Source: [Mycobacterium] crassicus (GTDB taxonomy: Bacteria; Actinomycetota; Actinomycetes; Mycobacteriales; Mycobacteriaceae). From it: a stretch of DNA of 64,000 nucleotides. Positions 12,120 to 31,685 of the stretch are shown here, in pieces. Each line of letters begins with the position of its first letter. The first letter of the stretch is position 1. Below the pieces are notes generated by a model. The model searched no databases and had not been told where the DNA came from. It was given only the letters and a program-made list of their open reading frames with translations. The position numbers and the translations under genes were made by a program. The stretch lies in NCBI RefSeq assembly GCF_020181615.1, contig NZ_CP084029.1, forward strand, positions 1,859,297-1,923,296. Reading direction: 5' to 3'.

Positions 12120-13004
12120 CTACGTGAGGTCGTAGCTGACCCGGCGGCCTAACGAAAGCTGCTGCACCACCGTGACACCGACCAGCACGGCGAACAGCAC
12201 CAGCGCCATCACCGCGGCCCGGCCGATCGCCGCCGCCCCGAACGCCTCGTCGTAGATGCGGTGCGCGATCAGGTCGGTGCGACCGCTCGGTCCGCCCCCG
12301 GTCAAGGCGTACACCGTGTCGAACACCTGCGCCGCGCTGACCACCCCGGTGACCAGGACGAAGAACATGGTGGGCCGCAGCATCGGCAACGTGACCCGCC
12401 AGAATCGCTGCCAGCCGGTCGCGCCGTCGATGCGCGCCGCCGACAGCACCTGGCTGGGGATGGCCAGGATGCCGGCCAGGAAGAACAGGGCGACATAGCC
12501 GACGTTGGTCCAGACCACCACCGCCGAGGTCACCGGCAGCGCCAACCCGGGATCGGTCAGCCATTCGATACGGTGGCCGGCCAGGGTGCTCACCGCGCCG
12601 TCGGTGGGGCTCAGGATCCAGCGCCATAGCACCGCTATCGCCAATGGTGCGCAGATCCACGGCAGCACGTAGATGGTGCGGAACATGCCGCTACCGGGCA
12701 GCTCGCGGGCCAGCAGCACCGCCACCCCCAGCCCCAGCACGGTTTGCAGCGGAACCACGAACGCGACGAAAAGCACGGTCACCACAAGGGAATTGCCGAA
12801 CACCGGATCGGTCAGCACCGACCGCCAGTTATCCGCGCCGACGTAATCGATCGGTCCCAGCAGATCCCAGCGGTGCAGGCTCAACCACACCACCACCAGC
12901 ATCGGCAGCAGCAGGAACGCCACCACGCCGAACAGGCTCGGGGCGAGCAGCGCGTAGCCGAGCGTGGTAGAGCGCCGCTGGCCGGCGCGCGGCGAGTCTG
13001 CCAT
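12120..13004 (-). CDS. uspA: ABC sugar-importer permease (UspA-like)
   Basis: A 294-residue MalF-type permease with six predicted helices and the EAA loop near the end of the second half (S-A-A-R-I-D-G-A-T-G-W-Q-R-F). The ATG at 13004 gives the expected cytoplasmic start (M-A-D-S-P-R). It should pair with UspB in the membrane. It is divergent from tldD with only 33 bases between the starts, so the promoters overlap. Its stop touches that of the convergent lpqH with no gap. Being alone, it cannot share a simple message with uspBC unless readthrough crosses lpqH and LuxR, which is unlikely because lpqH is antisense. Confidence 0.85.
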   Translation of the reverse strand: MADSPRAGQRRSTTLGYALLAPSLFGVVAFLLLPMLVVVWLSLHRWDLLGPIDYVGADNWRSVLTDPVFGNSLVVTVLFVAFVVPLQTVLGLGVAVLLARELPGSGMFRTIYVLPWICAPLAIAVLWRWILSPTDGAVSTLAGHRIEWLTDPGLALPVTSAVVVWTNVGYVALFFLAGILAIPSQVLSAARIDGATGWQRFWRVTLPMLRPTMFFVLVTGVVSAAQVFDTVYALTGGGPSGRTDLIAHRIYDEAFGAAAIGRAAVMALVLFAVLVGVTVVQQLSLGRRVSYDLT

Positions 13005-13037
13005 GCAGGTATTAAAACCGGTCGATACCGTGGACCG

Positions 13038-14552
13038 GTGACAGCGAACCGGGGGATTGATGCCGAATTTGTCGCCCTGCCCCGCCATGAGCTGGCCGAT
13101 GCCGCACTGTCGGCGGCCAGAGCGGCCGGAGCCGACCACGCCGACCTGCGGATTCATCGGATCGCCACGGAAGTCATCCGGCTGCGCGACGGCGAGCTGG
13201 AGACCGCCGTGGTCAACCGTGAGCTTGGGCTGGCCGTAAGGGTGATCGTCGACGGCACCTGGGGCTTCGCCTCGCATGCCGAACTGTCGCCGGGCGTGGC
13301 CGCCGAGACCGCCCGCCGCGCGGTGCAGGTGGCCAAGACGTTGGCCGCCCTCAACGGCGAGCGCGTCGAGCTGGCCGCCGAACCGGTCTACCGCGACGTC
13401 AGCTGGGTCTCGGACTATCGCATCGATCCGTTCGACGTGCCCACCGCCGACAAGATCGACGTACTGGAGGACTACTCGGGGCGGCTGCTGGCAGCCGATG
13501 GAGTGCACCACGTGACCGCATCCCTGACGGCGGTCAAGGAGCAGACCTTCTACGCCGACACCTTCGGGTCGTCGATCACCCAGCAGCGGGTGCGGCTGAT
13601 GCCGGTCTGCGACGCGGTCACCGTCGGGGCCGACGGCTTTGACTCCATGCGAACCCTGGCGCCGCCGACCGCCCGCGGCTGGGAGGCGGTGATCGGCGAC
13701 GACGTGTGGAACTGGACCGAGGAACTGGCGCAGTTGCCGGCGTTGTTGGCCGAGAAGATCAAAGCCCCCAGCGTGACGGCCGGGCCCACCGACCTGGTGA
13801 TCGACCCGACCAACTTGTGGCTGACGATCCACGAGTCCATCGGGCACGCAACCGAATACGACCGGGCCATCGGCTATGAGGCGGCCTACGCCGGCACATC
13901 GTTCGCCACCCCGGACAAGCTGGGCACGCTGCGGTACGGGTCGCCGGTGATGAACGTGACCGCCGACCGCACCGTGCCCTTCGGCCTGGCCAGCATCGGC
14001 TACGACGATGAGGGCGTGGCCGCCCAGAGCTGGGATCTGGTGCGCGACGGGCGATTCGTGGGTTACCAGCTGGACCGGGTGTTCGCGCCGCGCCTGGGTC
14101 AAGCCCGCTCCAATGGCTGTTCGTACGCCGACTCGCCACACCACGTGCCGATCCAGCGAATGGCCAACGTGTCGCTGCAACCGGGCCCCGATGACGTGAG
14201 CACCGCTGACCTGATCTCCCGGGTCGACGACGGCATCTATATCGTGGGCGATCGATCGTGGTCGATCGACATGCAGCGCTACAACTTTCAGTTCACCGGG
14301 CAGCGGTTCTTCCGGATCCGCGACGGGCGCCTCGATGGACAGCTGCGCGACGTCGCCTACCAGGCCACCACCACCGATTTCTGGAATGCGATGGAGGCCG
14401 TCGGCGGCGCTTCGACGTGGCGGCTCGGCGGGGCGTTCAACTGCGGCAAGGCCCAGCCCGGACAGGTCGCCGCGGTCAGCCACGGCTGCCCGTCGGCACT
14501 GTTCCGCGGAATCAACGTGCTCAACACCCGCAGCGAGGGGGGCCGGGAATGA
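13038..14552 (+). CDS. tldD: TldD-family metalloprotease subunit
   Basis: The GTG at 13038 gives 504 residues, the usual TldD length and that remembered for Rv2315c. The metal-binding motif H-E-S-I-G-H (HExxxH, about residues 262-267) is intact and is followed by E-Y-D-R-A. In E. coli TldD and TldE/PmbA form a hetero-dimeric protease that digests unfolded peptides, for example microcin B17 precursor and CcdA. Here the two genes overlap by four bases (ATGA), supporting an obligate pair. The frame is open further upstream, but that part runs antisense over uspA. Confidence 0.9.
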   Translation: MTANRGIDAEFVALPRHELADAALSAARAAGADHADLRIHRIATEVIRLRDGELETAVVNRELGLAVRVIVDGTWGFASHAELSPGVAAETARRAVQVAKTLAALNGERVELAAEPVYRDVSWVSDYRIDPFDVPTADKIDVLEDYSGRLLAADGVHHVTASLTAVKEQTFYADTFGSSITQQRVRLMPVCDAVTVGADGFDSMRTLAPPTARGWEAVIGDDVWNWTEELAQLPALLAEKIKAPSVTAGPTDLVIDPTNLWLTIHESIGHATEYDRAIGYEAAYAGTSFATPDKLGTLRYGSPVMNVTADRTVPFGLASIGYDDEGVAAQSWDLVRDGRFVGYQLDRVFAPRLGQARSNGCSYADSPHHVPIQRMANVSLQPGPDDVSTADLISRVDDGIYIVGDRSWSIDMQRYNFQFTGQRFFRIRDGRLDGQLRDVAYQATTTDFWNAMEAVGGASTWRLGGAFNCGKAQPGQVAAVSHGCPSALFRGINVLNTRSEGGRE

Positions 14553-15925
14553 TCCCAGCACAGCAGGTCATCGACACCGCGTTGGCAGCGAGCCGGCGGA
14601 GCGCCGGCAATAACATCGAGACCATCGTGCTGGTCACCGAACGGGCCGAGGCGTCACTGCGCTGGGCGGGTAACTCGATGACCACCAACGGGGTGTCGAA
14701 CAGCCGCACCACCACCGTGGTCTCGATCGTCCGCGACGACGAGGGCGCGCGGGTGGGCTCGCTGTGCTCGGCGGAGGTGGATCCGGCGCTCATCCCCGAA
14801 CTGGTGGCGGCGTCGGCCGAGGCGGCCGCGGGTGCGCCGGAGGCTCGTGACGCCGCGGACCTGGTGGGCGGCAACGGCGTACCGGAGGACTGGGACGCCG
14901 CGGTGCCGGGCACCGGTGCCGAGGTCTTCGGTGGGCTGGCCGGTTCGCTGAGCCGGGGCTTTCGGGGTGCTGACCAGCTCTACGGGTTCGCCCGGCACGA
15001 GGTGGAGACGACGTTCCTGGCGTCCTCGACCGGGTTGCGGCGACGTTTCACCCAGCCGACCGGGACTGTGGAGATCAACGCCAAACGCGACGGCGCCAGC
15101 GCCTGGGCTGGGATCAGCACACCGGACTTCGTTGATGTGCAGGCGGATTCGCTGTTGGAGCAGCTCTCCACCCGGCTGGGGTGGGCGGAGCGCAGCGTCG
15201 AGCTGCCGGCCGGCCGCTACGAGACGCTGATGCCGCCCTCGACGGTGGCCGACATGATGATCTATCTGGGGTGGACGATGAGCGGCCGCGGCGCGCAGGA
15301 GGGCCGCACCGCGCTGTCGGCGCCCGGCGGTGGCACCCGGGTGGGGGAGCGGCTCACCGAGTTGCCGTTGACCCTGTACTCCGACCCGCACGCGTTCGAG
15401 CTCGAATGTGCGCCGTTCGTGGCGACCGGCACCTCCTCGGAGACGGCGTCGGTGTTCGACAACGGCCTGGACATCGGCTGCGTGGACTGGATCCGCGGCG
15501 GGGTGATCAATGCGCTGGCCTACCCGCGGGCCGCCGCTGCGGAGTTCGGGGTTCCGGTCGCACTGGCCGCAGACAACCTGTTGATGACCGGCGGCACGGC
15601 GAGCATGGACGAGATGATCGCCTCCACCGAGCGTGGGCTGCTGCTGACCACGTTGTGGTACATCCGCGAGGTCGACCCGACCACGCTGCTACTGACCGGG
15701 CTGACCCGCGACGGCGTCTACCTGGTCGAGGACGGCAAGGTGAGCGCGGCGGTGAACAACTTCCGGTTCAACGAGAGCCCGCTGGACCTGCTGCGCCGGG
15801 CCGCTCAGGCCGGCGTCGCCGAGCCGACACTCCCACGGGAATGGGGCGACTGGGCCACCCGCGCGGTGATGCCGTCATTGCGGATCCCGGACTTCCACAT
15901 GTCGTCGGTCAGTCAGGCGCAGTGA
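14549..15925 (+). CDS. pmbA: PmbA/TldE-family protease partner
   Basis: This 458-residue protein belongs to the same fold as TldD but lacks the HExxxH motif, as expected of the TldE/PmbA subunit. Recognisable segments are the N-terminal region (A-E-A-S-L-R-W-A-G-N) and the C-terminal domain with D-N-G-L-D-I-G-C, T-G-G-T-A-S-M-D-E-M-I and the ending N-N-F-R-F-N-E-S-P. It is translationally coupled to tldD. The last 17 bases overlap the 3' end of the convergent giant regulator gene. Confidence 0.9.
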   Translation: MIPAQQVIDTALAASRRSAGNNIETIVLVTERAEASLRWAGNSMTTNGVSNSRTTTVVSIVRDDEGARVGSLCSAEVDPALIPELVAASAEAAAGAPEARDAADLVGGNGVPEDWDAAVPGTGAEVFGGLAGSLSRGFRGADQLYGFARHEVETTFLASSTGLRRRFTQPTGTVEINAKRDGASAWAGISTPDFVDVQADSLLEQLSTRLGWAERSVELPAGRYETLMPPSTVADMMIYLGWTMSGRGAQEGRTALSAPGGGTRVGERLTELPLTLYSDPHAFELECAPFVATGTSSETASVFDNGLDIGCVDWIRGGVINALAYPRAAAAEFGVPVALAADNLLMTGGTASMDEMIASTERGLLLTTLWYIREVDPTTLLLTGLTRDGVYLVEDGKVSAAVNNFRFNESPLDLLRRAAQAGVAEPTLPREWGDWATRAVMPSLRIPDFHMSSVSQAQ

Positions 15926-18900
15926 GCTCGTCGAACCTGGCAAGCGCGGCGTCGAGGTCCGTCTCGTCGAACAGCTCGCAGCGGTTGATCACATCGCCGT
16001 CGACGGTCAGGAGATTGATATCGCGCCACTCCGCGTCGAAGCCCTCTTGGGAAATCCCCTGCGCCACATGGGTGACGGTCGCTCCGATGGTGCTGAGCCG
16101 ATGCACCGCTGCGATGTAGATCCTGGTATCCGGTGAATCATCCCATGCTGCTTGGAGGTACGCGATCATGTCACCGGAGGCGAAACCCGCCCCGCGGCGG
16201 TGGTCAATACTTACCCAGTCCGGCGTTGTCGCGGCGAGGTCGCGCCGGTTGAAACCCGCGTAACCGTCCGCGACGAGCGACCAGGTGTGCGCATAGGCGG
16301 CGGCCTCACCGGCGAGGTAGCGGGCATCGAGCTCTTCGAGGGCGGCGTCAAGATCGCCGAGGTCGAACATGACCCCCGAGGTGATTCGTTGGTTGCTGTC
16401 GATCTCGAGGACGCCGAGCACGTCGGTGCGGAACGCCTCGGGCTGCTGGTCGTGCCCGCAGAATCGGTAGCGATGCAGCACGAGCCGCTCTCCGCGGATC
16501 GCGATCACGGTCGCCGTGATGGTCTGGACTCCGATCTGGGCGGTTGCCTGCCAGTCGGCGAGGACGGTGTCTCTACCACACCGGACCCCGACACCCACCA
16601 ACGGACGGCGATCGTCGGTGGTGACGTCGTCTGCCATCAGCCCGGCCACCGTGTTCCAGTGACGGGCCGCGAACGACGCCTCGAATCGCGCCCCGACTCG
16701 GCTTGCTGTGTTCTCCGGTCGCAGCGCGGGCCGACCGAGTTCCTCGAACCGCGCGATCGCGGCATCGAGATCTGCCTCGTTGTAGATTTCGCAGCGGTTG
16801 ACCAGGTCGCCTTCGAAGGTGATCACGCCGACCGCTCGCCACTCGGAGTGGAATCCGTCTTGGGAGATCTCCTGAGCCATGTACGTGTAGACCGCTCCGA
16901 GGTCGTTGAGTCGATGAACCGATTCGATGATGTGGCTCAGGTCAGACCTGGAAGTCCATGCGGCGTGTAGCAACGCGGGAATCTCGCCGGATGCGATCGG
17001 GGTTCCTCGCCGGTGATCGACGTTCACCCAACCCGGCGTGGTCCCGAAGAGCTCGCGCCGGTTGAGCGAAGCGAAAGCCTGCATGAGGAGTGACCACGTG
17101 CGCGAGTTCTCGGCCGCCTCACCGGCGAGGTAGCGGGCATCGAGTTCTGCGATCGCGGCACCGATGTCGTCAACATCGAACACTACGGCCGCCACGACCT
17201 TCTCGTCGGAGTCGATCTCGACGATGTTGAGCGCTTCGTTTTGAACTGACCCGGGGTCGTTTCCGGAGGCGCGAACGCGGGTGAGGACAAGGCGCTCGCC
17301 GCGGGTTGCCACCGTGCCCAGCAGGATCATCCCGAAGCCGACTTCAGCGGTGGCCTGCAGCTCTTTGATCCCCGCATCGCGACCGTACCGAACGCCGACG
17401 TTCACCATCCGTCGGCGATCGTCGAGGACATAGTTGTCGGCCGCGGCTTGAGCGATGGCATCCCAGTCCCGCGCCGCGAACTGCGGATAGAACCGTTCGA
17501 TCACCAGTGCCGCCGTGTTCTCCGGGCGCCGAGTCGGTGAGCGCTCCTGCTCGTATCGTGCGTGCAGGGCATCGAGTTCGGCGATCGCGGCGACGACGTC
17601 GTCGACGTCGAACCAGACCTGGAACGCGACCCGACCGTCCTCGTCAATGCCGTACACATCGAGGAATTCGTCGTTCGGTGCGCCGGGGCTCGCGTCGGCG
17701 GTGCCCACGCTCACTCGAGAGAGAGCCAGACGCTCGCCTCGCACAGCGATGAACACATAGTCGATCCGGACCTCGCCCGTCTCGAGAATATTCTTGTTCC
17801 GACGTTGCCAGTCATCGAATGAGATGTCGCTGGACGTGAAGCCGACGATCTTGCGACGACTCTCAATGGCGGATTCGGCTGCATACAATTGCTCGAACTC
17901 GTCCCAGTCGCCTCGGTTGGTTGCGGCCACCACGCGTTCAGCCACTCGCACGCATGTGGTGTCGAAACCGACGGCCGGTTCCTCGGGTGGCGCAGCGGCG
18001 GGAGACGCGACGCGCTCGCCAAGTATGAGCCGCGCTTTCTCCGCAAGCGCCGCAGCGCCTTTCCGTTCGTACAGGTCCACCGCCTGCGCCGCGGCGGCTC
18101 GCGCGCCCATGGAGTCCCCGCCGCCATCCAACACTCTCGCCAGCACCAGACAGGCATCACCGTGGTCGACCAGGCCGTCGGTCTGCTCCGCCAGCGCGAC
18201 CGCGTCCTCGGCCGTTCGCCGGGCGCCGTCAAAATCACCGCGACGCGCTGACAGCAGCGCCCGAAGCGTCCGCCAGGCGATCGATGCCTTCAGCGCATGG
18301 CCGGCCAGACGTTCACTCTCCGAACATAATTCATCGGCCTCGGGATCTCGGTCCAGCGCCAGACAAGCACGACCCAGCAGCGCCGCGGTCTCGGCGGTGT
18401 CCGCGTCGAGGCCCATCCGACGAAAGCCCCGGTAGGCCCGACGGAGCTGTGGCTCGGCCTGGCCGGGATCGTCCAGGACCAGCTCGACGATCCCGGCGAA
18501 CTGCTCGACCTCGAGCAGGGCATGGCGCAGGCCTAGCTCGGTGACCGTGCGCCGGGCCGACTCGATCATGCGTCGGGCTGCCGGGGCGCGGCCGCGGAAG
18601 GCCTCCAACACGGCTTGGCATCGCGTCGATGTCGCCTCGACCGCCGGGGAATCCGTGGTGATTCGCAACAGCCGCACCACGTCCAGGCACCGTCCGCCCG
18701 CCCGGGGCACCGGGCTGGGGCCCCACAGCGCCGCGACCGGTGCGCCGGCCAGCACCGCATTGACCCGACGGTGTTCACGTGCGCGCCGCGCCGCCGTCAG
18801 CGCCTTGTCCAACGCGATCTCGCAATCGCCGATTCGCCCCAATCGGGCGAGACACCCGGCGCGCACGGTATGCGCCTTGGCTTCGCCTGCGGCATCGCCC

Positions 18901-21782
18901 AATCCGGCCAGCGAGTCGGCCGCCGCGCCCAGCGCCACCTCGATCTCGTCCAGCCGTTCGGGATGGGTCAGCATCGACAGCTGGCCATCGAAGCACGTCG
19001 CCCATGCCGCCAACCGGGCCGAATCGACGGTCGCGGCGTGCAATTGCGCAACCGCACCCGCTGCCGAGGCCACATCACCCGCGGCCAGCAGCGCTTCGCA
19101 GCGCGCGACCAACAGCTCGGCGACCTGGTCGGCGCGGTCGGGCAGCTCCCCATCGAGCTCCTCCAGCGCATGTAGGGCCCGGTCGTACAGGTCGGCGGCG
19201 CCTTCGTAGGCCAGGCGGGACATCGCCTGCTCCGCGGCCCTGCGGCAGTAGTCGACGGCCTTGGCCGCGTTTCCCGCCCACGCACATTCGAAATAGTGGT
19301 GCGCCAGTTCCGCCAGCAGCTCGTCGTCTGCGCCGGGGGCGCTTTCCATTGTCGCGGCGATGCGCTGGTGCAGCCGCATGCGTCGTACCGATGACAGCTC
19401 GGCAAGCAGGGAATGTCGGACAATGGCGTGGTTGAACCGGTATCGTCCGCCGGGTTCTTCGATGACGATGCCGGCCTTGCAGGCCTCGTCGAACGCGTCG
19501 ACCAGGTCTTGGTCGACCACCTGCTCGACGAGGTTCAACGCGAAGCGACTGCCGACGACCGCGGCCGCCGCCAGGGCGTTGTTGGTATCGGCCGGAAGAC
19601 GCGAGAGCCTGCGGCCCACGGCCTCACGAACGCCCTGCGGCAAGGTACCCGGATCCCACACGCCACCGCTCTCGTCCACATGGCGCAGCGCCTCGATCAG
19701 AAAGAACGGGTTGCCCCCGGTGACCGACGCCAACGCCCGGGCGAGCTCTTCGTCGTCGTACCCGGCCTCGGCGAGATAGGCGGTCACGTCGTCCTCATTG
19801 AGGCCGCCCAGCGCAAGGCGGTTCGCGGTGCCGTCCCGGTGCAGGTCGGCCAGCATCGCCGCCAGCGGATGGGAGCGGTCGAGGTCGGTGCTGCGGTAGG
19901 TCGCGACGACCTGTACGCGGGTGTGGTCCCCGAAGCGCAGCAGATGCCGCAGCAGCAACAGCGTGGGTTTGGCGGCCCAGTGCAGGTCGTCGAGAACCAG
20001 GACGACGGGCGCGTCCGTGGAAGCGAGTTCCAATACCGCGACCACGGCGTCGAACAGTGCGTAACGTTCGGTGTCCGGGTCGGCGCGGGGTGGCGCGGAC
20101 AGGTCGGGCAGCACGTCGGTCAGTCCGCGAACCAGCGGCAGCAGGGCTTCGATGCCGCGCACTGCGCGCAGCCGGGCGGCGTCGATACACGGCACCAGCG
20201 AACGCAGCGCTTCGGCGAACGGTTGATAGGGCGCCCCGAGGTCCTCGTCGGAACGGCCGTACAAGACGACGGCGCCTTGCTCGAAGGCCAGTCGAGACCA
20301 TTCGCCGGCCAACCGCGTCTTGCCCACACCTGGTTCACCGGCGATCAACACCGCGTGCATGCCACCGGTCCGCCACACCGATGCCAGCCGCTCCAGCTCG
20401 CGGCCGCGTCCCACGAACGGCCCGGGGCCGGTCAATACCTCGGGGAGCCCGGGCCGCTCCAGCGGCTCTTCGCGGGTCGCCTCGAGGAGTTCGGCGGTCC
20501 GTAGGCGAAGTTCGAAGACATGCTCGGGGCGCGGCAGGTTGCGCAGCGTACGCATGCCGAGGTCGGCGAGCACCACGTCGTCGGGCAGGGTGTCGATGAC
20601 GAGTTCGGCGGTTGCGCCGGAGCACAGGATCTGACCTCCGGCGGCCAGCGATCGCAGGCGGGCAACGCGGTTGACCGCGCGGCCGAAGTAGTCGCCGTCG
20701 CGGAGCTCGACTTCGCCGGTGTGCAGGGCCACCCGGACACGCATGGGATCGCGTAGGAGCCAGGGCTCGCACCGGATGGCGTCCTGTAACTCGATGGCAG
20801 CCGCGGCGGCCCCTGACGGCCGCTCGAAGACCGAGAACGTGGCATCGCCCTCGCCGCGCGTCTTGATCAGCCGTCCGCCCCGGGATGTAACGACCTGTTC
20901 GACCAACTCATCGTGACGCGCCAGCGCCGCCGCCATGGCCTTGGCATCGGCTTCCCAGGCGGCGGTCGACCCCTCGATGTCGGTGAGCAGGAAGGTCACG
21001 GCGCGTGTCACCGACGGAAGATGCTGTGTCACCAGGTGATCCAATGCGGAATCCTGCACGACGACAGCGGCCTCGAGTCGCCGAAGTTCCGGACCGGGGT
21101 CGACTCCGAGCTCATCGGCCAGCAGCGACCGGACCCGCTGATACGCGCCGAGGGCTTCACCCTGTCTGCCGGCGCGGTAGAGGGCGAGCATCAGCTGGGC
21201 CCATCGCCTTTCCCGCAGCGGCGCGTCGGCCACCGCCGCCTCGAGTTCGCCGATGATCTCGGCGGCTCGGCCCGCCGCCAGCAGCGCATCGGCTCGATCC
21301 TCGACGAGCGCGGCATGGCCTTCGATCCAGCGGGTCCTCTCGGAGATTCCCCGGCGGGAATCGGGCAGTTCGGGAGTTCCGCGCCAGAGGGCCATCGCCT
21401 CCTCGAAGCAGACCACCGCCTGGGTGGTGTTGCCGACGGCCGCGGCCGCCCGGCCCAGTTTGGTGGCCAGTTTGTAGCGCGGGGCGTCCACCTCGGTCGT
21501 GCTGAGTATCCAGCCCAGTCCGTCGGTGACGACGAAGCCGTCGCCCAACACCCGACGCAGTGAGGAGATATGGGTCTGCAGGGCCTTGGCGGCGGTGCGC
21601 GGCGGATCGTCGCCCCAGAGCAGGTCGGTCAGCGTGTCGGCCGATACCACCGAACCGCCGTACAGCCCGAGCATGGTGAGGATGGCGCGCGGTTTGGCCC
21701 CCGGAATAGTGACCGGGGCGCTGTCCCGCCGGGCCTGGAGAGGTCCCAAAACCCCCAGCTCCACGGCTTGAATGGTAGTCAT
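15909..21782 (-). CDS. Giant BTAD-cyclase-AAA-TPR regulator with five C-terminal NTF2/SnoaL-like modules
   Basis: From the ATG at 21782 this protein has 1957 residues. Order: SARP-type winged helix (about 10-95) and BTAD domain (about 98-245); class III nucleotidyl cyclase domain (about 258-410) with L-T-D-I-E-G-S-T, K-T-R-G-E-G-D and the V-N-R-V-A-R-L catalytic Asn/Arg segment; AAA ATPase with Walker A G-E-P-G-V-G-K-T (about 482-489) and Walker B-like V-V-L-V-L-D-D-L-H-W; a long TPR-like helical region to about 1265; then five NTF2/SnoaL-like modules (about 1275-1410, 1420-1550, 1555-1675, 1688-1815, 1825-1950). Modules 1, 2 and 4 resemble each other (G-E-R-L-V-L, V-F-D-V-D-D), and 3 and 5 resemble each other (T-W-S-L, W-V-x-x-D-H-R-R-G). 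SARP/cyclase/AAA proteins are known in mycobacteria; this tail is the unusual part. A GTG at 21812 is an alternative start. Confidence 0.88.
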   Translation of the reverse strand: MTTIQAVELGVLGPLQARRDSAPVTIPGAKPRAILTMLGLYGGSVVSADTLTDLLWGDDPPRTAAKALQTHISSLRRVLGDGFVVTDGLGWILSTTEVDAPRYKLATKLGRAAAAVGNTTQAVVCFEEAMALWRGTPELPDSRRGISERTRWIEGHAALVEDRADALLAAGRAAEIIGELEAAVADAPLRERRWAQLMLALYRAGRQGEALGAYQRVRSLLADELGVDPGPELRRLEAAVVVQDSALDHLVTQHLPSVTRAVTFLLTDIEGSTAAWEADAKAMAAALARHDELVEQVVTSRGGRLIKTRGEGDATFSVFERPSGAAAAAIELQDAIRCEPWLLRDPMRVRVALHTGEVELRDGDYFGRAVNRVARLRSLAAGGQILCSGATAELVIDTLPDDVVLADLGMRTLRNLPRPEHVFELRLRTAELLEATREEPLERPGLPEVLTGPGPFVGRGRELERLASVWRTGGMHAVLIAGEPGVGKTRLAGEWSRLAFEQGAVVLYGRSDEDLGAPYQPFAEALRSLVPCIDAARLRAVRGIEALLPLVRGLTDVLPDLSAPPRADPDTERYALFDAVVAVLELASTDAPVVLVLDDLHWAAKPTLLLLRHLLRFGDHTRVQVVATYRSTDLDRSHPLAAMLADLHRDGTANRLALGGLNEDDVTAYLAEAGYDDEELARALASVTGGNPFFLIEALRHVDESGGVWDPGTLPQGVREAVGRRLSRLPADTNNALAAAAVVGSRFALNLVEQVVDQDLVDAFDEACKAGIVIEEPGGRYRFNHAIVRHSLLAELSSVRRMRLHQRIAATMESAPGADDELLAELAHHYFECAWAGNAAKAVDYCRRAAEQAMSRLAYEGAADLYDRALHALEELDGELPDRADQVAELLVARCEALLAAGDVASAAGAVAQLHAATVDSARLAAWATCFDGQLSMLTHPERLDEIEVALGAAADSLAGLGDAAGEAKAHTVRAGCLARLGRIGDCEIALDKALTAARRAREHRRVNAVLAGAPVAALWGPSPVPRAGGRCLDVVRLLRITTDSPAVEATSTRCQAVLEAFRGRAPAARRMIESARRTVTELGLRHALLEVEQFAGIVELVLDDPGQAEPQLRRAYRGFRRMGLDADTAETAALLGRACLALDRDPEADELCSESERLAGHALKASIAWRTLRALLSARRGDFDGARRTAEDAVALAEQTDGLVDHGDACLVLARVLDGGGDSMGARAAAAQAVDLYERKGAAALAEKARLILGERVASPAAAPPEEPAVGFDTTCVRVAERVVAATNRGDWDEFEQLYAAESAIESRRKIVGFTSSDISFDDWQRRNKNILETGEVRIDYVFIAVRGERLALSRVSVGTADASPGAPNDEFLDVYGIDEDGRVAFQVWFDVDDVVAAIAELDALHARYEQERSPTRRPENTAALVIERFYPQFAARDWDAIAQAAADNYVLDDRRRMVNVGVRYGRDAGIKELQATAEVGFGMILLGTVATRGERLVLTRVRASGNDPGSVQNEALNIVEIDSDEKVVAAVVFDVDDIGAAIAELDARYLAGEAAENSRTWSLLMQAFASLNRRELFGTTPGWVNVDHRRGTPIASGEIPALLHAAWTSRSDLSHIIESVHRLNDLGAVYTYMAQEISQDGFHSEWRAVGVITFEGDLVNRCEIYNEADLDAAIARFEELGRPALRPENTASRVGARFEASFAARHWNTVAGLMADDVTTDDRRPLVGVGVRCGRDTVLADWQATAQIGVQTITATVIAIRGERLVLHRYRFCGHDQQPEAFRTDVLGVLEIDSNQRITSGVMFDLGDLDAALEELDARYLAGEAAAYAHTWSLVADGYAGFNRRDLAATTPDWVSIDHRRGAGFASGDMIAYLQAAWDDSPDTRIYIAAVHRLSTIGATVTHVAQGISQEGFDAEWRDINLLTVDGDVINRCELFDETDLDAALARFDELTAPD

Positions 21783-22464: not shown

Positions 22465-24405
22465 ATGAGCGCGCGTGTGGAGCAGCTGGAGTTTCAGGCT
22501 GAGGCCCGTCAGCTGCTGGATTTGATGATCCACTCGGTCTACTCCAACAAGGACGCGTTCCTGCGGGAGCTGATCTCCAATGCTTCTGACGCGCTGGACA
22601 AGCTGCGGCTTGAGGCATTCCGCAACAAGGACCTCGAGGTCGACACCTCCGACCTGCACATCGAGATCATGGTGGACAAGGCCGCGCGCACTCTGACCGT
22701 CCGCGACAACGGAATCGGGATGTCGCGTGATGAGGTGGTGGACCTGATCGGCACCCTGGCCCGCTCCGGCACCGCCGAGCTGCGCCAGCAACTGCGTGAA
22801 GCGCAGAACGCCAAGAACGAAGCGGCCTCCGAAGAGCTGATCGGGCAGTTCGGGATCGGGTTCTACTCGGTGTTCATGGTCGCCGACCGAGTCGAGATGG
22901 TCACCCACAAGGCCGGCCAGAGCGAGGCCATCCGTTGGCAATCCGGTGGTGACGGCACCTACACCATCGAACCGGTGGAGGACGCGCCGCAGGGTACGTC
23001 GATCACCCTGCATCTCAAGCCCGAAGACGTCGAAGACGCGCTGCACGACTACACCGCCGACGGGACGATCCGGGGGCTGATCAAGAAGTACTCCGACTTC
23101 ATCGCCTGGCCGGTCCGGATGCAGGTCGAGCTCCGGACCCCGCCGACCGAAGACGGCGGTGAAGAGACCGTCACGCTTTCGACCGAAACCCTGAACTCGA
23201 TGCAGGCGCTGTGGGCGCGTCCCAAAGACGAAGTCTCGCAAGAGGAGTACCAGGACTTCTACAAACACATCGCGCACGCCTGGGACGACCCGCTCGAGGT
23301 CATCGCGATGAAGGCCGAGGGCACCTTCGAATACCAGGCGTTGTTGTTCATTCCGTCGCACGCCCCGTTCGACCTGTTCAACCGGGACGCGCAGGTCGGG
23401 ATTCAGCTGTACGTCAAACGCGTGTTCATCATGGGCGACTGCGACCAGCTGATGCCCGAGTACCTGCGCTTCGTCAAGGGTGTCGTCGACGCAGCGGATA
23501 TGTCGCTCAATGTCTCTCGGGAGATCTTGCAGCAGGATCGGCAGATCAACGCGATTCGCCGGCGGCTGACCAAGAAGGTGCTGTCCACCATCAAGGAGTT
23601 GCAGTCGCAGCGGCCCGAGGACTACCGCACCTTCTGGACCGAGTTCGGCCGCGTCGTCAAGGAAGGGTTGCTCTCCGACTTCGACAATCAGGAGGCGCTG
23701 CTGGGCATCTGTTCGTTCGCCTCCACGCACAGCGACTCCGAGGCCACCACCCTGGCGGAGTACGTCGACCGCATGAAAGACGGCCAGGAGCAGATCTTCT
23801 ACGCCACCGGCGAATCTCGCCAGCAACTCTTGAAGTCACCGCACCTGGAGGCGTTCAAAGCCAAGGGCTACGAGGTGCTGTTGCTGACCGATCCGGTCGA
23901 CGAGGTGTGGGTGAGCGCCGTCGCCGAATTCGCCGGCAAGCCTCTGCAATCGACGGCCAAGGGCGAGGTGGACCTGGACTCCGAGGAGGACAAGGCTGCG
24001 CACGAGGCCGAGCGCAAGGAACAGCAGAAGGATTTCGCCGACCTGATCGCCTGGCTGGCGCAGAAGCTGACCGAGCATGTCAAAGAGGTGCGGCTGTCCA
24101 CTCGGCTGACCGAGTCGCCGGCCTGCCTGATCACCGACACCTTCGAGATGACCCCGGCGCTGGCGCGCATCTACCGCGCCAACGGTCAGGAGGTCCCGGT
24201 CGGCAAGCGGATCCTCGAGCTGAATCCGGGCCATCCGCTGATCACTGGCCTGCGCCAGGCGCACGCACAGCGCGGCGACGACGCCGGATTGGCCGAGACC
24301 GCGGAATTGCTCTACGGCACAGCGCTGTTGGCCGAGGGTGGCGCGCTGGAGGATCCGGCGCGGTTCGCCGAGCTGCTGGCGGATCGGCTGGCCCGAACCG
24401 TCTGA
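22465..24405 (+). CDS. htpG: Chaperone protein HtpG (bacterial Hsp90)
   Basis: The ATG at 22465, preceded by a strong GGAGGGAGA ribosome binding site, gives 646 residues, the normal HtpG length. The N-terminal GHKL ATPase domain is intact: E-L-I-S-N-A-S-D-A-L, D-N-G-I-G-M (about 84-89), G-T-L-A-R-S-G-T and G-Q-F-G-I-G-F-Y-S. The middle domain contains the conserved L-N-V-S-R-E-I-L-Q-Q segment with the ATPase-activating Arg. The C-terminal dimerisation domain follows and lacks the eukaryotic MEEVD tail, as usual in bacteria. It is a cytoplasmic ATP-dependent chaperone. It corresponds to Rv2299c (from memory). Confidence 0.97.
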   Translation: MSARVEQLEFQAEARQLLDLMIHSVYSNKDAFLRELISNASDALDKLRLEAFRNKDLEVDTSDLHIEIMVDKAARTLTVRDNGIGMSRDEVVDLIGTLARSGTAELRQQLREAQNAKNEAASEELIGQFGIGFYSVFMVADRVEMVTHKAGQSEAIRWQSGGDGTYTIEPVEDAPQGTSITLHLKPEDVEDALHDYTADGTIRGLIKKYSDFIAWPVRMQVELRTPPTEDGGEETVTLSTETLNSMQALWARPKDEVSQEEYQDFYKHIAHAWDDPLEVIAMKAEGTFEYQALLFIPSHAPFDLFNRDAQVGIQLYVKRVFIMGDCDQLMPEYLRFVKGVVDAADMSLNVSREILQQDRQINAIRRRLTKKVLSTIKELQSQRPEDYRTFWTEFGRVVKEGLLSDFDNQEALLGICSFASTHSDSEATTLAEYVDRMKDGQEQIFYATGESRQQLLKSPHLEAFKAKGYEVLLLTDPVDEVWVSAVAEFAGKPLQSTAKGEVDLDSEEDKAAHEAERKEQQKDFADLIAWLAQKLTEHVKEVRLSTRLTESPACLITDTFEMTPALARIYRANGQEVPVGKRILELNPGHPLITGLRQAHAQRGDDAGLAETAELLYGTALLAEGGALEDPARFAELLADRLARTV

Positions 24406-28515: not shown

Positions 28516-29388
28516 ATGATCTCCGAGTCGCAGCTGGCAGATACCTTCGAACAGCAGCGCCATCGCATGCTGGCGCTGGCCCATCGGGTGTTGGGCTCGC
28601 GGTCAGATGCCGAAGATGCGGTTCAGGAGGCGTGGCTGCGGCTGTCCCGCCAGGACGCCGACGGGATCGACAACCTGCCCGGGTGGTTGACGACCGTGAT
28701 CAGCCGCATCTGCATCGACACCCTGCGTTCGCGCGCCGCGCGGCCCGAGGTCTCGATCGATCAAGGCCTTCCCGAACTCGTGGTGGCCGATGACCGCGAC
28801 ATCCCGGAAGACGCTGCGGTGCTGTCTGATTCGGTCGGCCTGGCTCTGTTGGTGGTGCTGGGGTCGCTGTGTCCTGACGAACGCCTGGCATTCGTGCTGC
28901 ACGACATGTTCGCGGTCCCGTTCGCTGAGATCGGGCCGATTATCGGCAAATCGGCCGATGCCGCCAAGATGCTGGCCAGCCGGGCGCGCCGCAAAGTCCA
29001 GGACGTACCCAGGCCGGCGGGAGACCGGCGGGAGCAGCGCCAGGTCGTCGACGCCTTCCTGTCGGCCGCCCAGTCGGGCGACTTCGAGGCCCTGCTGCGG
29101 GTGCTCGATCCCGACATCACCTGGCGGCAGCACACGGCCCGCGGTGTCACCGTCACGACCGGATCCGGCGAGGTCGTCGAGGCGGTCCGCCGGGGTCAGG
29201 GGGCGCGCATCACCGCACGCCGCGTGCTGGTCAACGGCGAGCCCGGAATCCTGGGCTGGGGCCCTTCTGGCCGGCCGCTGAGCCTGATGGCGTGCACGGT
29301 GCGCAATGGCCGTCTGGTGGGCATCGTGTCGATCGCAGACCCGGTCCGGTTGGCCGGGCTCGATCTGCCTGAGCCTCCCGATGCGTAG
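28516..29388 (+). CDS. ECF sigma factor with SnoaL-like C-terminal domain
   Basis: This 290-residue protein has sigma region 2 (about 10-75; A-L-A-H-R-V-L-G-S-R-S-D-A-E-D-A-V-Q-E-A), region 4 (about 105-160; D-E-R-L-A-F-V-L-H-D-M-F and I-G-K-S-A-D-A-A-K-M-L-A-S-R-A-R-R-K) and a C-terminal NTF2/SnoaL-like domain (about 172-285). Such SigJ/SigI/ECF41-type factors are controlled by their own C-terminal domain instead of a separate anti-sigma factor, and no anti-sigma gene is adjacent here. Length and order recall SigI/SigJ of M. tuberculosis, but identity is not clear enough for a symbol. The likely targets are itself and the divergent DoxX-like gene. Confidence 0.86.
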   Translation: MISESQLADTFEQQRHRMLALAHRVLGSRSDAEDAVQEAWLRLSRQDADGIDNLPGWLTTVISRICIDTLRSRAARPEVSIDQGLPELVVADDRDIPEDAAVLSDSVGLALLVVLGSLCPDERLAFVLHDMFAVPFAEIGPIIGKSADAAKMLASRARRKVQDVPRPAGDRREQRQVVDAFLSAAQSGDFEALLRVLDPDITWRQHTARGVTVTTGSGEVVEAVRRGQGARITARRVLVNGEPGILGWGPSGRPLSLMACTVRNGRLVGIVSIADPVRLAGLDLPEPPDA

Positions 29389-29733: not shown

Positions 29734-30495
29734 TCACGTGGCAAAGAACGAGTTGAACAGCGCTTGGAACAGCTCGGGCATGGTGAGCTCGGGAATCTCG
29801 TTGAATGTGGTCATCCCGACGGTTTCCGCTGTGGCCGAGGCGATCTGGTCTGCCGTTAACCCGAGGTAGGCATTATGGACTGCCATCCCGAACAGCACGT
29901 CCTGCCAACTTGTGTTCCCGAACAGCAGGTCTATCCAACTTGTGGTTAGGGAGTGCGTCGCGTAGATGTCGCCTTGGATGTTGAACACTTCGGTGGGATA
30001 CATGGTGGTGGGGACGGCGCCGGGGGTGGCGCCGAGCATCACGAAACGTAAGGCATTGGCGGGGACGCCGGCCTCGATGAGGTCATTTTGGGCGTTGGCC
30101 GCCACCAGGCTGCTTTGGGAGTAGGTGAAAATAGTCAGCGGGTCGGTACACACGCCGAGGTTGTTGCAGCCCATGTCGCCGTTCTGGAAGTCGGTGAGGA
30201 TCGCGTCGACGAGGATCTTTTCGCCCTGCGGGACGCTCGTCAGGAAGTTATAGGTGTTGGGGGTGGTCAGCGCCACTGTCGACGCGGCGGTGCCCTCATA
30301 CCCCAGCGGATCGAGGTACAGGTCCATCCCGTGGCTGATGTAGTTGGCGCTCGGTGTTGGGATTCCGGTCGGGCCCAGGACCAACGCGTCGGTTGAGCCG
30401 TAGAGGAAGTCGTAGTTCTGGTTGGCGGCGTTGGCTCCAGCGGCCAACGCCAGCGCGGCGCCACACAGCGCAGCTCCGAGGATTACTCGCTTCAT
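29734..30495 (-). CDS. Secreted PE-PPE-domain protein (putative serine esterase), copy A
   Basis: The ATG at 30495, preceded by AAGGGGGG, gives 253 residues with a signal peptide (K-R then Ala/Leu core, cleavage near A-N-A at 23-24). The mature part matches the PE-PPE hydrolase domain without any PE or PPE N-terminus. A Ser-Asp-His triad can be proposed: S126 in T-Y-S-Q-S, D176 in Q-G-D-I-Y-A and H207 in V-H-N-A-Y. The usual Gly before the nucleophile is Thr here. One cysteine pair (C110, C116) may form a disulfide. A close paralogue lies 266 bases upstream on the same strand, with its own copy of the same upstream DNA. Confidence 0.82.
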   Translation of the reverse strand: MKRVILGAALCGAALALAAGANAANQNYDFLYGSTDALVLGPTGIPTPSANYISHGMDLYLDPLGYEGTAASTVALTTPNTYNFLTSVPQGEKILVDAILTDFQNGDMGCNNLGVCTDPLTIFTYSQSSLVAANAQNDLIEAGVPANALRFVMLGATPGAVPTTMYPTEVFNIQGDIYATHSLTTSWIDLLFGNTSWQDVLFGMAVHNAYLGLTADQIASATAETVGMTTFNEIPELTMPELFQALFNSFFAT

Positions 30496-30690
30496 CGGGT
30501 CCCCCCTTGTTCGCAAAGGTCACAGAGGATTTCGCCCAGTTGAGTTGCTGGGCACGTGATTACATTGATCGACACCGCCCCCACGGTGGATGTCGATCGT
30601 GTGCTGTGGTACCGGTTGTCGACACACGAAGTATTGCCGGTGACGTTAAATTTATCTCCGGAACCGAGAAACTCGGCGAACGAAATCGGC
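30496..30690 (-). repeat. Upstream region of PE-PPE copy A, duplicated
   Basis: This non-coding stretch aligns by eye along about 180 bases with 31497-31685, the region upstream of copy B. Shared blocks include the ribosome-binding-site area (GGGTCCCCCC), TCACAGA, GCTGGGC and a perfect ACCGGTTGTCGAC at 30611-30623. Conservation in a promoter region implies that the duplication carried its control DNA, and the best conserved blocks may be regulator sites. I see no gene in it. Confidence 0.7.
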
Positions 30691-30761
30691 GAGAGGCTAA
30701 ACCGGACTAGCTGGGACGCGCTGTTGTGGTGGCTGCCCGGGTCCGGTACGGCCGCTAGGCA

Positions 30762-31496
30762 TCACGCGGCGCGGAGCGCGTTGAGTAGCGCATCCCAGAG
30801 CTCGGTGGAGGTAAGTGTCGGAATGTCGTTAATTGTGGTCATCCCGTCGACCACCGTTGTGGCCGAGTCGACTTCGGCGGGAGTCAGTCCGAGGTAGGCC
30901 TCGTGGAGTTCGAGCCCGAGTATGAAGTTCTGCCAACTTGCGCCCAGGGAACCGGGTTCGGCGTAGATGTCACCGTGAATGTTGTAGATGTCGGTCGGGT
31001 AGAGGTCGTTGGGGACGACGCTGTTGTTGGCGCCGAGCATGACGAAACGTAAGGCGTCGGTCGGGATGTGGTGGGCGGCGAGTTGCTGTTCGGCGAGAGC
31101 TGCGTCGAGGCTGCTCTGCGAGTAGGTGAAAATGGTCAGCGGGTCGCTGCACGCGCCGGAGGCGTCGCAGCCCATGTCGCCGGCGTTGTAGTCGGCGAGA
31201 ACCGCGTTGACGAGGATTGCTTCGCCCTGCGGGACGCTCGAAAGGAAGTCGCTGGTTTCGGGGGTGGTCAGTGCCACCGTCGTCGCGGTGGTTCCGCCAT
31301 ACCCGTTCGGTTCGAGGTACAGGTTGAGCACGTCGCTGATGTAGGCGGCATTCGGTGTCGGGATGCCAGTCGGGCCCAACACCAACGCGTTTGTTGAGCC
31401 GTAGAGGAAGTCGTAGGTGCCGGCGTCGGCGTTGGCTGCGGTGGCCGCCGCCAGCGCGGCCCCGCACAGCGCGGCGCCGAAGATCACTTGCTTCAT
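30762..31496 (-). CDS. Secreted PE-PPE-domain protein (putative serine esterase), copy B
   Basis: A 244-residue paralogue of the downstream gene, sharing the signal peptide (F-G-A-A-L-C-G-A-A-L), the D-F-L-Y-G-S-T-N-A-L-V-L-G-P-T-G-I-P-T-P block, S-V-P-Q-G-E, N-A-G-D-M-G-C and the nucleophile region F-T-Y-S-Q-S-S. The Asp (H-G-D-I-Y-A) and His (L-H-E-A-Y-L-G-L) of the proposed triad are also kept, so both copies should be active. The start at 31496 gives the same signal peptide start as copy A. It is transcribed toward copy A. Confidence 0.82.
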   Translation of the reverse strand: MKQVIFGAALCGAALAAATAANADAGTYDFLYGSTNALVLGPTGIPTPNAAYISDVLNLYLEPNGYGGTTATTVALTTPETSDFLSSVPQGEAILVNAVLADYNAGDMGCDASGACSDPLTIFTYSQSSLDAALAEQQLAAHHIPTDALRFVMLGANNSVVPNDLYPTDIYNIHGDIYAEPGSLGASWQNFILGLELHEAYLGLTPAEVDSATTVVDGMTTINDIPTLTSTELWDALLNALRAA

Positions 31497-31685
31497 GGGT
31501 CCCCCCGTAGGTCGCAAGCTCACAGATGATGTCGCCGAGCCACTCTGCTGGGCGCGTCATTATGTTGGCCGACATGTCCCCCCCGGGAGATGCCGAGCGA
31601 GCTCTGGCACCGGTTGTCGACGGCAGAATTATCGCAGTTGACGTCCATTTGTTCTACGGAATCAAGGTGAACGCCGAGTGAAACT
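31497..31685 (-). repeat. Upstream region of PE-PPE copy B, duplicated
   Basis: This is the second copy of the duplicated upstream DNA described for 30496-30690, with the conserved ACCGGTTGTCGAC block around 31609-31622. On its far side lies a methyltransferase remnant, which may mark the edge of the rearrangement. Confidence 0.68.

Follow-up and report, generated by a model that had tools for sequence, protein, structure and literature searches.

This locus raises the question of why a putative transcriptional regulator should carry a nucleotide cyclase, an ATPase and a C-terminal tail of five NTF2/SnoaL-like modules, and of how such a tail has come about. The gene lies in a stretch of 64,000 nucleotides from [Mycobacterium] crassicus, which we call the window, and its source name, "BTAD domain-containing putative transcriptional regulator", conveys little of this architecture (Table 1). 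The original prediction had described one continuous polypeptide. The frame is indeed continuous and has no internal stop, but it is read from the minus strand; a plus-strand reading of the same interval is ruled out by 16 in-frame stops. The start codon is an ATG at position 21782, and a GTG 10 codons upstream is likewise in the open frame.

Table 1. Features of the array gene, with positions in the window.
Feature	Position	Strand	Basis
Whole gene, 1957 aa, stop included	15909..21782	-	Open-frame list and translation
Trans_reg_C winged-helix DNA-binding domain, residues 30-81	21540..21695	-	Pfam, above curated cut-off
BTAD domain, residues 98-240	21063..21491	-	Pfam, E 1e-36, above cut-off
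Class III cyclase (Guanylate_cyc), residues 260-394	20601..21005	-	Pfam, above cut-off
AAA_16 ATPase, residues 455-623	19914..20420	-	Pfam, above cut-off
TPR_12 match, residues 1097-1152, before the tail	18327..18494	-	Pfam, E 3e-4, below family cut-off
NTF2 module 1, type A, ESRR replacing DxRR, residues 1273-1419	17526..17966	-	Motif cut, identity, AlphaFold2
NTF2 module 2, type A, residues 1420-1559	17106..17525	-	Motif cut, identity, AlphaFold2
NTF2 module 3, type B, residues 1560-1688	16719..17105	-	Motif cut, identity, AlphaFold2
NTF2 module 4, type A, residues 1689-1830	16293..16718	-	Motif cut, identity, AlphaFold2
NTF2 module 5, type B, residues 1831-1957	15912..16292	-	Motif cut, identity, AlphaFold2
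A2-to-B3 linker, crossover relative to L015 (approximate)	17109..17168	-	DNA comparison with L015
29-nt exact repeat, copy 1, A2-B3 linker	17116..17144	-	Repeat search of the tail
29-nt exact repeat, copy 2, A4-B5 linker	16303..16331	-	Repeat search of the tail

Looking for the same array elsewhere, we found a widespread mycobacterial family in which the arrays are usually longer than the one in the window. A genome scan gave 205 related stretches, from which we retained the best 79 distinct loci. By name, all of these belong to Mycobacterium, Mycolicibacter, Mycolicibacterium or unclassified Mycobacteriaceae. Most of our comparisons use 80 genes with a near-complete head, namely the window gene and those of 78 of the 79 loci (L038 was left out, as its head is partial, and L053 contributes two genes). 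These loci also bear on the concern that the tail might be a separate gene joined to the head by a sequencing error. For the window gene no obvious error of this kind is seen, as the stop-free frame sits on one 4.87 Mb contig, no exact repeat in the tail is longer than 29 nt, and the same single-frame fusion recurs in most of the 79 loci. The gene is the sole full-length match within its genome. At G000:C1:1267486-1282172 the same genome holds four clustered cyclase/AAA relatives (frames of 1051-1186 aa), which match the query over the cyclase/ATPase part only.

The order of the SARP/BTAD, cyclase and AAA parts was borne out by Pfam, with the TPR part below its cut-off. An OmpR-type winged helix followed by a BTAD domain, both above the Pfam cut-off, makes the protein a member of the SARP/BTAD group, and residues 5-248 match EmbR (2fez, E 8e-35) and AfsR (8hvr) among PDB sequences. 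Both EmbR and AfsR likewise have a winged helix and a BTAD domain at the N-terminus, and AfsR continues into an ATPase after the BTAD. On the other hand, neither of them is known to have a cyclase or an NTF2 array, and the NCBIfam AfsR model scores the window protein at 151, against a cut-off of 1430. The heads closest to that of the window come from loci named Mycolicibacter.

The active sites of the head, whose cyclase Asn/Arg and Walker motifs had been predicted to be intact, are not only present in the window but invariant across the family. The nearest PDB sequence to the cyclase domain is Ma1120, and the alignment to it has a two-residue gap beside D313. D268, K307, D313, D364, N371 and R375, which by their class III positions we take to be the two metal-binding Asp, the substrate Lys/Asp and the transition-state Asn/Arg, are present in all 80 genes. 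The same is true of the lysine of Walker A (GEPGVGKT, residues 482-489) and of both Walker B aspartates (598-599). An AAA-type NTPase with Walker A and B motifs thus stands between an effector and a C-terminal tail, which is the plan of STAND ATPases; the tail would then take the place of the sensor.

The tail itself (residues 1273-1957) was divided into modules at recurring motifs; all those quoted in the original prediction are found in the translation. The predicted module order A-A-B-A-B is correct, as the identities are 33-50% between A modules and 51% between the B modules, compared with 13-22% between A and B. That the modules have the NTF2 fold follows from three kinds of evidence. Firstly, Pfam SnoaL_2 matches three stretches of the tail above the cut-off. 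Secondly, an AlphaFold2 model of the whole tail (from a 63-row alignment that left out one L046 reference running off its locus) has a mean pLDDT of 85 and consists of five alpha-alpha-beta-alpha-4beta units, that is, NTF2/SnoaL cones; its pTM of 0.48 leaves the unit-to-unit geometry and the overall shape of the array uncertain. Thirdly, the structures matched in the PDB are ketosteroid isomerases, Rv0760c (including a complex with an estradiol derivative), limonene epoxide hydrolase, Lsd19 and designed steroid or vitamin binders; 6p3l is the ketosteroid isomerase (KSI) of M. hassiacum. When PDB sequences were searched with the AB-unit profile, nothing significant was found (the best hit, at E 0.11, was an unrelated GTPase). 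A single AB unit, modelled from the unit of the window and 45 units drawn at random from 515 (46 rows), reached a pLDDT of 92.9 and a pTM of 0.90, and we therefore predict that A and B form one defined two-domain body.

In Foldseek, the AB unit matched best to Lsd19 and MonB (both domains, E 3e-12 to 3e-9), polyether epoxide hydrolases that also have two NTF2 domains in one chain. Potentially, then, the modules could be working enzymes of the isomerase, cyclase or epoxide hydrolase type carried by a regulator, so that the head would control the expression or activity of a multi-enzyme, although we consider this rather unlikely. Lsd19-type epoxide hydrolases have Asp/Glu pairs and two NTF2 domains in the Lsd19 arrangement. 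The AB unit matches both domains, in a different orientation (rmsd about 11-12 for Lsd19 and MonB; 11.6 over 218 for Lsd19). Lsd19 and MonB are enzymes that are not known to be linked to a regulator. Genes for a SnoaL/LEH-like protein, a zinc-type alcohol dehydrogenase and an alpha/beta hydrolase near the array gene fit an enzymatic role, but no polyketide or peptide synthase is encoded by the eight neighbouring frames that were tested.

A similar ambivalence is seen in the pocket residues. The catalytic residues of KSI are Asp38, Tyr14 and Asp99 (tKSI numbering). The alignment that places them on the modules is weak (E 0.21) and the register of strand 4 is ambiguous, and for this reason we confine ourselves to these three sites. 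On this weak alignment, the Asp38 position is acidic in 532 of the 557 non-initial A modules, whereas the Tyr14 position is Tyr in only 53 of 556 and the Asp99 position Asp in only 50 of 556, so that the KSI triad as a whole is mostly absent. In the B modules, the position of D1860 is Asp in 97% of 531. The kept acid could mean catalysis, but in the first modules the Asp is replaced by Ser (96% of 81), and this module may act as a cap. The residues at the Asp99 position of A modules, mainly G, S, N, Q, D, E and T, would fit cups that have different polar contacts; the idea of a variable pocket draws on this single site of the weak KSI alignment. On balance, we infer that a multi-site sensor is the best reading of the tail.

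Next, we asked how the array varies within the family. By the A and B profiles, the number of modules per frame ranges from 2 to 37 in the 80 genes, with a median of 12, and relatives bear from two to at least seventeen AB pairs. These counts are minima where the frame is cut by the end of the locus or contig (L019, L065, L068, L075, L081) or where the array continues in a second frame (L010, L028, L062, L067, L071). The longest frame, that of L081, measures 6253 aa with 17 B modules and runs off its locus, while the shortest arrays that are neither cut nor split are those of the window and L082, with five modules each. The order of modules is exactly A(AB)n in 54 of the 80 genes and A(AB)nA in 10; 14 of the other 16 begin with three or more A modules. 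As the collection has one genome per species, all this variation in length is between loci and species.

Such a regular order could be expected if the array were a scaffold for protein interaction or oligomerisation, in which valency or size, and not the range of ligands, would depend on how many pairs there are. NTF2 folds often dimerise, A and B together make a well-defined predicted unit, and the linkers are conserved. However, modules of the same family are about 70-95% identical between loci while array neighbours share about 50%, and a pure spacer needs no such identities. We regard a scaffold as unlikely.

The family is narrowly distributed. In the order, the AB profile matches 26 of 397 genomes that are at least 90% complete; all 26 are in the genus of the window, for which 45 genomes were listed. 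Among 396 genomes of the phylum it matches 8, two of them outside the genus, and one of these two (G464) has an array; both searches score only part of the first-pass candidates. The G464 array protein and a divergent protein from the genus of the window (G159) have, by eye, a cysteine-rich, zinc-ribbon-like start and a cyclase-ATPase-TPR-NTF2 plan without BTAD. In the two distant relatives of this kind, L129 and L130 (1757 and 2448 aa), we saw no BTAD when the translations were read by eye, and the NTF2 modules are only distantly related (best E of the AB profile about 1e-25). Since these two distant relatives do without a BTAD, DNA binding is dispensable to the plan.

To what extent do head and tail evolve together? 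Genes with heads that are 96.3, 95.8 and 95.5% identical carry 9 and 12, 13 and 21, and 15 and 21 modules, respectively. The closest pair, L084 and L011 (heads 99.6% identical), shares all 13 modules in unchanged order. When the modules of close pairs are compared, the result is a patchwork in which shared modules of 80-98% identity are broken by modules whose best partner reaches about 50%, and module families recur in other loci in different orders. For 1171 modules, the best match has a median identity of 72.6% in another locus (which may be the second gene of the same genome), compared with 52.8% in the module's own array. Eight modules are at least 80% identical to another in their own array, and none of the 1171 reaches 90%; recent tandem duplication was therefore rejected as the source of the arrays. 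The view that the array grew by duplication stands for the remote past, as homology unites the A modules among themselves and likewise the B modules, but not for recent times.

The sites at which modules are exchanged were located by halving each module and tracing each half to its source module in another gene. With unordered pairs of the 80 genes, 75% half-module identity and a lead of 10 points, the source switched in 30 of 113 cases across module boundaries and in none of 332 cases inside modules; as the pairs share genes, the Fisher value cannot be read as a true probability. The result was the same with ordered pairs (21/121 at boundaries, 0/216 inside) and under stricter settings with the closest pairs only (11/61 and 0/107). 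Switching is thus confined to boundaries. At the DNA level, AB units (150 drawn at random from 515) have an identity of 0.67-0.75 at the A-to-B linker and at the end of B, compared with 0.48-0.66 elsewhere.

The synonymous distances of one pair of loci, L040 and L047, are what one would expect from recent exchange between lineages: dS is 0.25 for the head, 0.02-0.06 for modules 12-15 and up to 0.65 for others. The array gene is present twice in some genomes (L027 and L052; both copies in L053), so that exchange inside one genome may be as important as that from species to species. In L053 (1678-20954), the two array genes, with 12 and 16 modules, are arranged in tandem with a slight overlap.

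As the linker DNA is the most similar part of any two units, recombination there is expected even without selection. The length and order of the arrays could then simply drift, with linkers recombining by chance and any number of pairs being tolerated. Against such neutral drift, dN/dS of shared modules is 0.08-0.63, mostly 0.1-0.4, in ten of eleven close pairs, the heads of which have 0.075-0.14 (the eleventh pair, L084 and L011, is too close for measurement). The shared modules are under purifying selection. Furthermore, the frames stay open up to the full length of L081, and the arrays are not homogenised. We find neutral drift hard to believe. A more specific account is that of a receptor family with exchangeable cassettes, in which NTF2 cups are traded singly between genes and species, the linkers being both structural joints and recombination targets, and each mycobacterium having its own combination of chemical sensors on one conserved cAMP/DNA-binding switch. 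It would be a small-molecule counterpart to the repeat-variable NLR receptors; we offer it tentatively, as a possibility about which we remain more doubtful than convinced.

The array of the window illustrates this history. It matches positions 2, 9, 10 and 11 of a 13-module array from M. heraklionensis (L015). Up to the linker DIGAAIAELDARYLAGEAAE, window A2 tracks module 2 of L015 with a DNA identity of about 80% (68-86% per 20-residue stretch), and past this linker window B3 tracks L015 module 9, again at about 80% (68-83%). By this comparison, we take the A2-B3 junction to be a recombinant that crossed at the conserved linker. The longest exact repeat within the tail measures 29 nt. Since dS between the modules of the window and L015 (0.52-0.66) is close to that of the heads (0.60), the modules look like vertical relatives. 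The other loci that have both A2-like and A4-like families (L009, L015 and L059) all keep at least three modules between the two, and loss in the lineage of the window would therefore be a simpler account than insertion elsewhere. The array has probably shrunk, and its present form seems best explained by loss and recombination.

Not all arrays are attached to a head. In six of the 79 loci (L010, L028, L038, L062, L067 and L071) the array is split over two frames, as would be expected under neutral drift if losses were tolerated. Of 120 proteins listed in a search with the tail, 46 are headless arrays with 12-25 modules each, which counts in favour of modules as enzymes; some of these frames are at contig ends and others on long contigs (100 kb to 1 Mb). 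The headless and split arrays could be explained by decay, by errors of sequencing, by contig ends or by truly separate tail genes, and some tails may work without a head. When a single AB unit served as the query, 1258 proteins were obtained, of which the 120 listed measure 336-472 aa. Many of these AB-only proteins are on contigs of 1-3 kb and their names, where given, are mostly Mycobacterium, which would suggest fragments of arrays rather than free-living ancestors, but others are on long contigs (for example P0146, M. kiyosense, 6.3 Mb).

The genomic neighbourhood of the array gene was also inspected. A SnoaL/limonene-epoxide-hydrolase-like gene (P0122, 21936-22442, minus strand) lies 153 bp upstream on the same strand; similar genes (87-97% identical) occupy the same place in L009, L011, L059 and L084, and none was found in the other 75 of the 79 loci searched. 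Two TldD/PmbA metallopeptidase frames (12744-15925, plus strand) converge on the 3' end of the array gene, and the second one overlaps its stop. At a distance of 6.7 kb there is an ECF sigma factor (28516-29388, plus strand) that is ECF41/SigJ-like, with a C-terminal SnoaL_2 match just below the cut-off. Further on, two similar predicted proteins in tandem (29734-31523, minus strand) have signal-peptide-like starts, with YDFLYGST and ALVLGPTGIPTP present in each. An Hsp90 (HtpG-type) gene (22468-24405, plus strand) is divergent to the array gene. Eukaryotic NLRs use Hsp90. Hsp90 as a conserved partner was nevertheless rejected, because it is found near the array gene in 10 of the 79 loci, all named Mycolicibacter (a DNA-level search found only six), and looks like a chromosomal address.

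A STAND-like plan with a changing tail is also found in the fungal NLRs HET-D and HET-E, in which a signalling ATPase carries variable C-terminal repeats whose combinations differ between alleles (PMC12222747), and bacterial conflict systems with STAND ATPases are described in PMC7159879. By analogy, the array could recognise proteins of phages or of other cells, making the gene a receptor for conflict, defence or self-recognition. The repeat number on the ATPase does vary as in HET-D/E, from 2 to 37 modules in the 80 genes, but the concerted homogenisation of repeats is not seen (median best match in the own array 53%); the HET-D/E sensors are WD40 repeats kept near-identical by concerted evolution, whereas here whole NTF2 domains have diverged. 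PADLOC gives one weak match only (mad8 over the ATPase region, E 0.0032), the Mycolicibacter array gene sits among Hsp90 and TldD/PmbA genes, and the output is a cyclase and not a toxic effector. Besides, NTF2 cups usually bind small molecules. A role in defence therefore seems very improbable to us.

Other known systems share single parts of the architecture. The mycobacterial cyclase-LuxR regulators of the Rv0386 and Rv1358 type combine a class III cyclase with a DNA-binding part and are, within Actinobacteria, restricted to Mycobacterium; their DNA-binding domain is LuxR and not BTAD, and the portions of PMC3466318 that cover them do not mention an NTF2 array. In ECF41 sigma factors (SigJ, SigI), a C-terminal SnoaL/NTF2-like domain regulates the transcription factor (PMC8999054). 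Though this is one SnoaL-like domain on a sigma factor and the window protein has an array of five modules, ECF41 is, by analogy, the best precedent for NTF2-like domains that regulate transcription. Among the titles and opening lines of abstracts that our searches of the open-licence PMC literature listed, none describes a recombining NTF2-domain array on a STAND-like cyclase/BTAD head. In summary, the parts are known, and the combination of a recombining array of whole NTF2 domains with such a head is a real and unusual feature.

We therefore favour a STAND-type switch with the AB array as its sensor for small molecules and with cAMP synthesis and DNA binding as the outputs that the array drives, and give this reading a probability of roughly one half. 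The constant head (winged helix and BTAD, class III cyclase, AAA_16, TPR) would be regulated by C-terminal pairs of NTF2 sensors, with A and B predicted to pack as a pseudo-heterodimer and the first A module linking the TPR region with the array. The cups would bind small molecules, probably hydrophobic or polyketide-, steroid- or lipid-like ones. Because the order of effector, ATPase, TPR and array resembles that of STAND proteins (PMC7159879), the switch may be held off until the array is occupied; occupancy of the cups would then move the ATPase between closed and open states, and this shift would raise cAMP synthesis and alter DNA binding. Ligand binding, its coupling to the head and the promoter targets are what we infer here. 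Whole modules would be added, removed or swapped in frame when the conserved linkers undergo homologous recombination, either unequal or between genomes, so that the ligand set of the receptor could change quickly while the engine stays conserved.

If this is true, many mycobacteria carry a modular receptor for chemical recognition, the repertoire of which is re-assorted by recombination and the arrays of which can be read from sequence. It would be a testable model of how bacteria evolve specificities for new ligands while the signalling output stays fixed. Biosensor work could draw on more than a thousand natural NTF2 modules of the family (1171 of them in our loci), and the family would bear on the many mycobacterial cyclases that lack known inputs.
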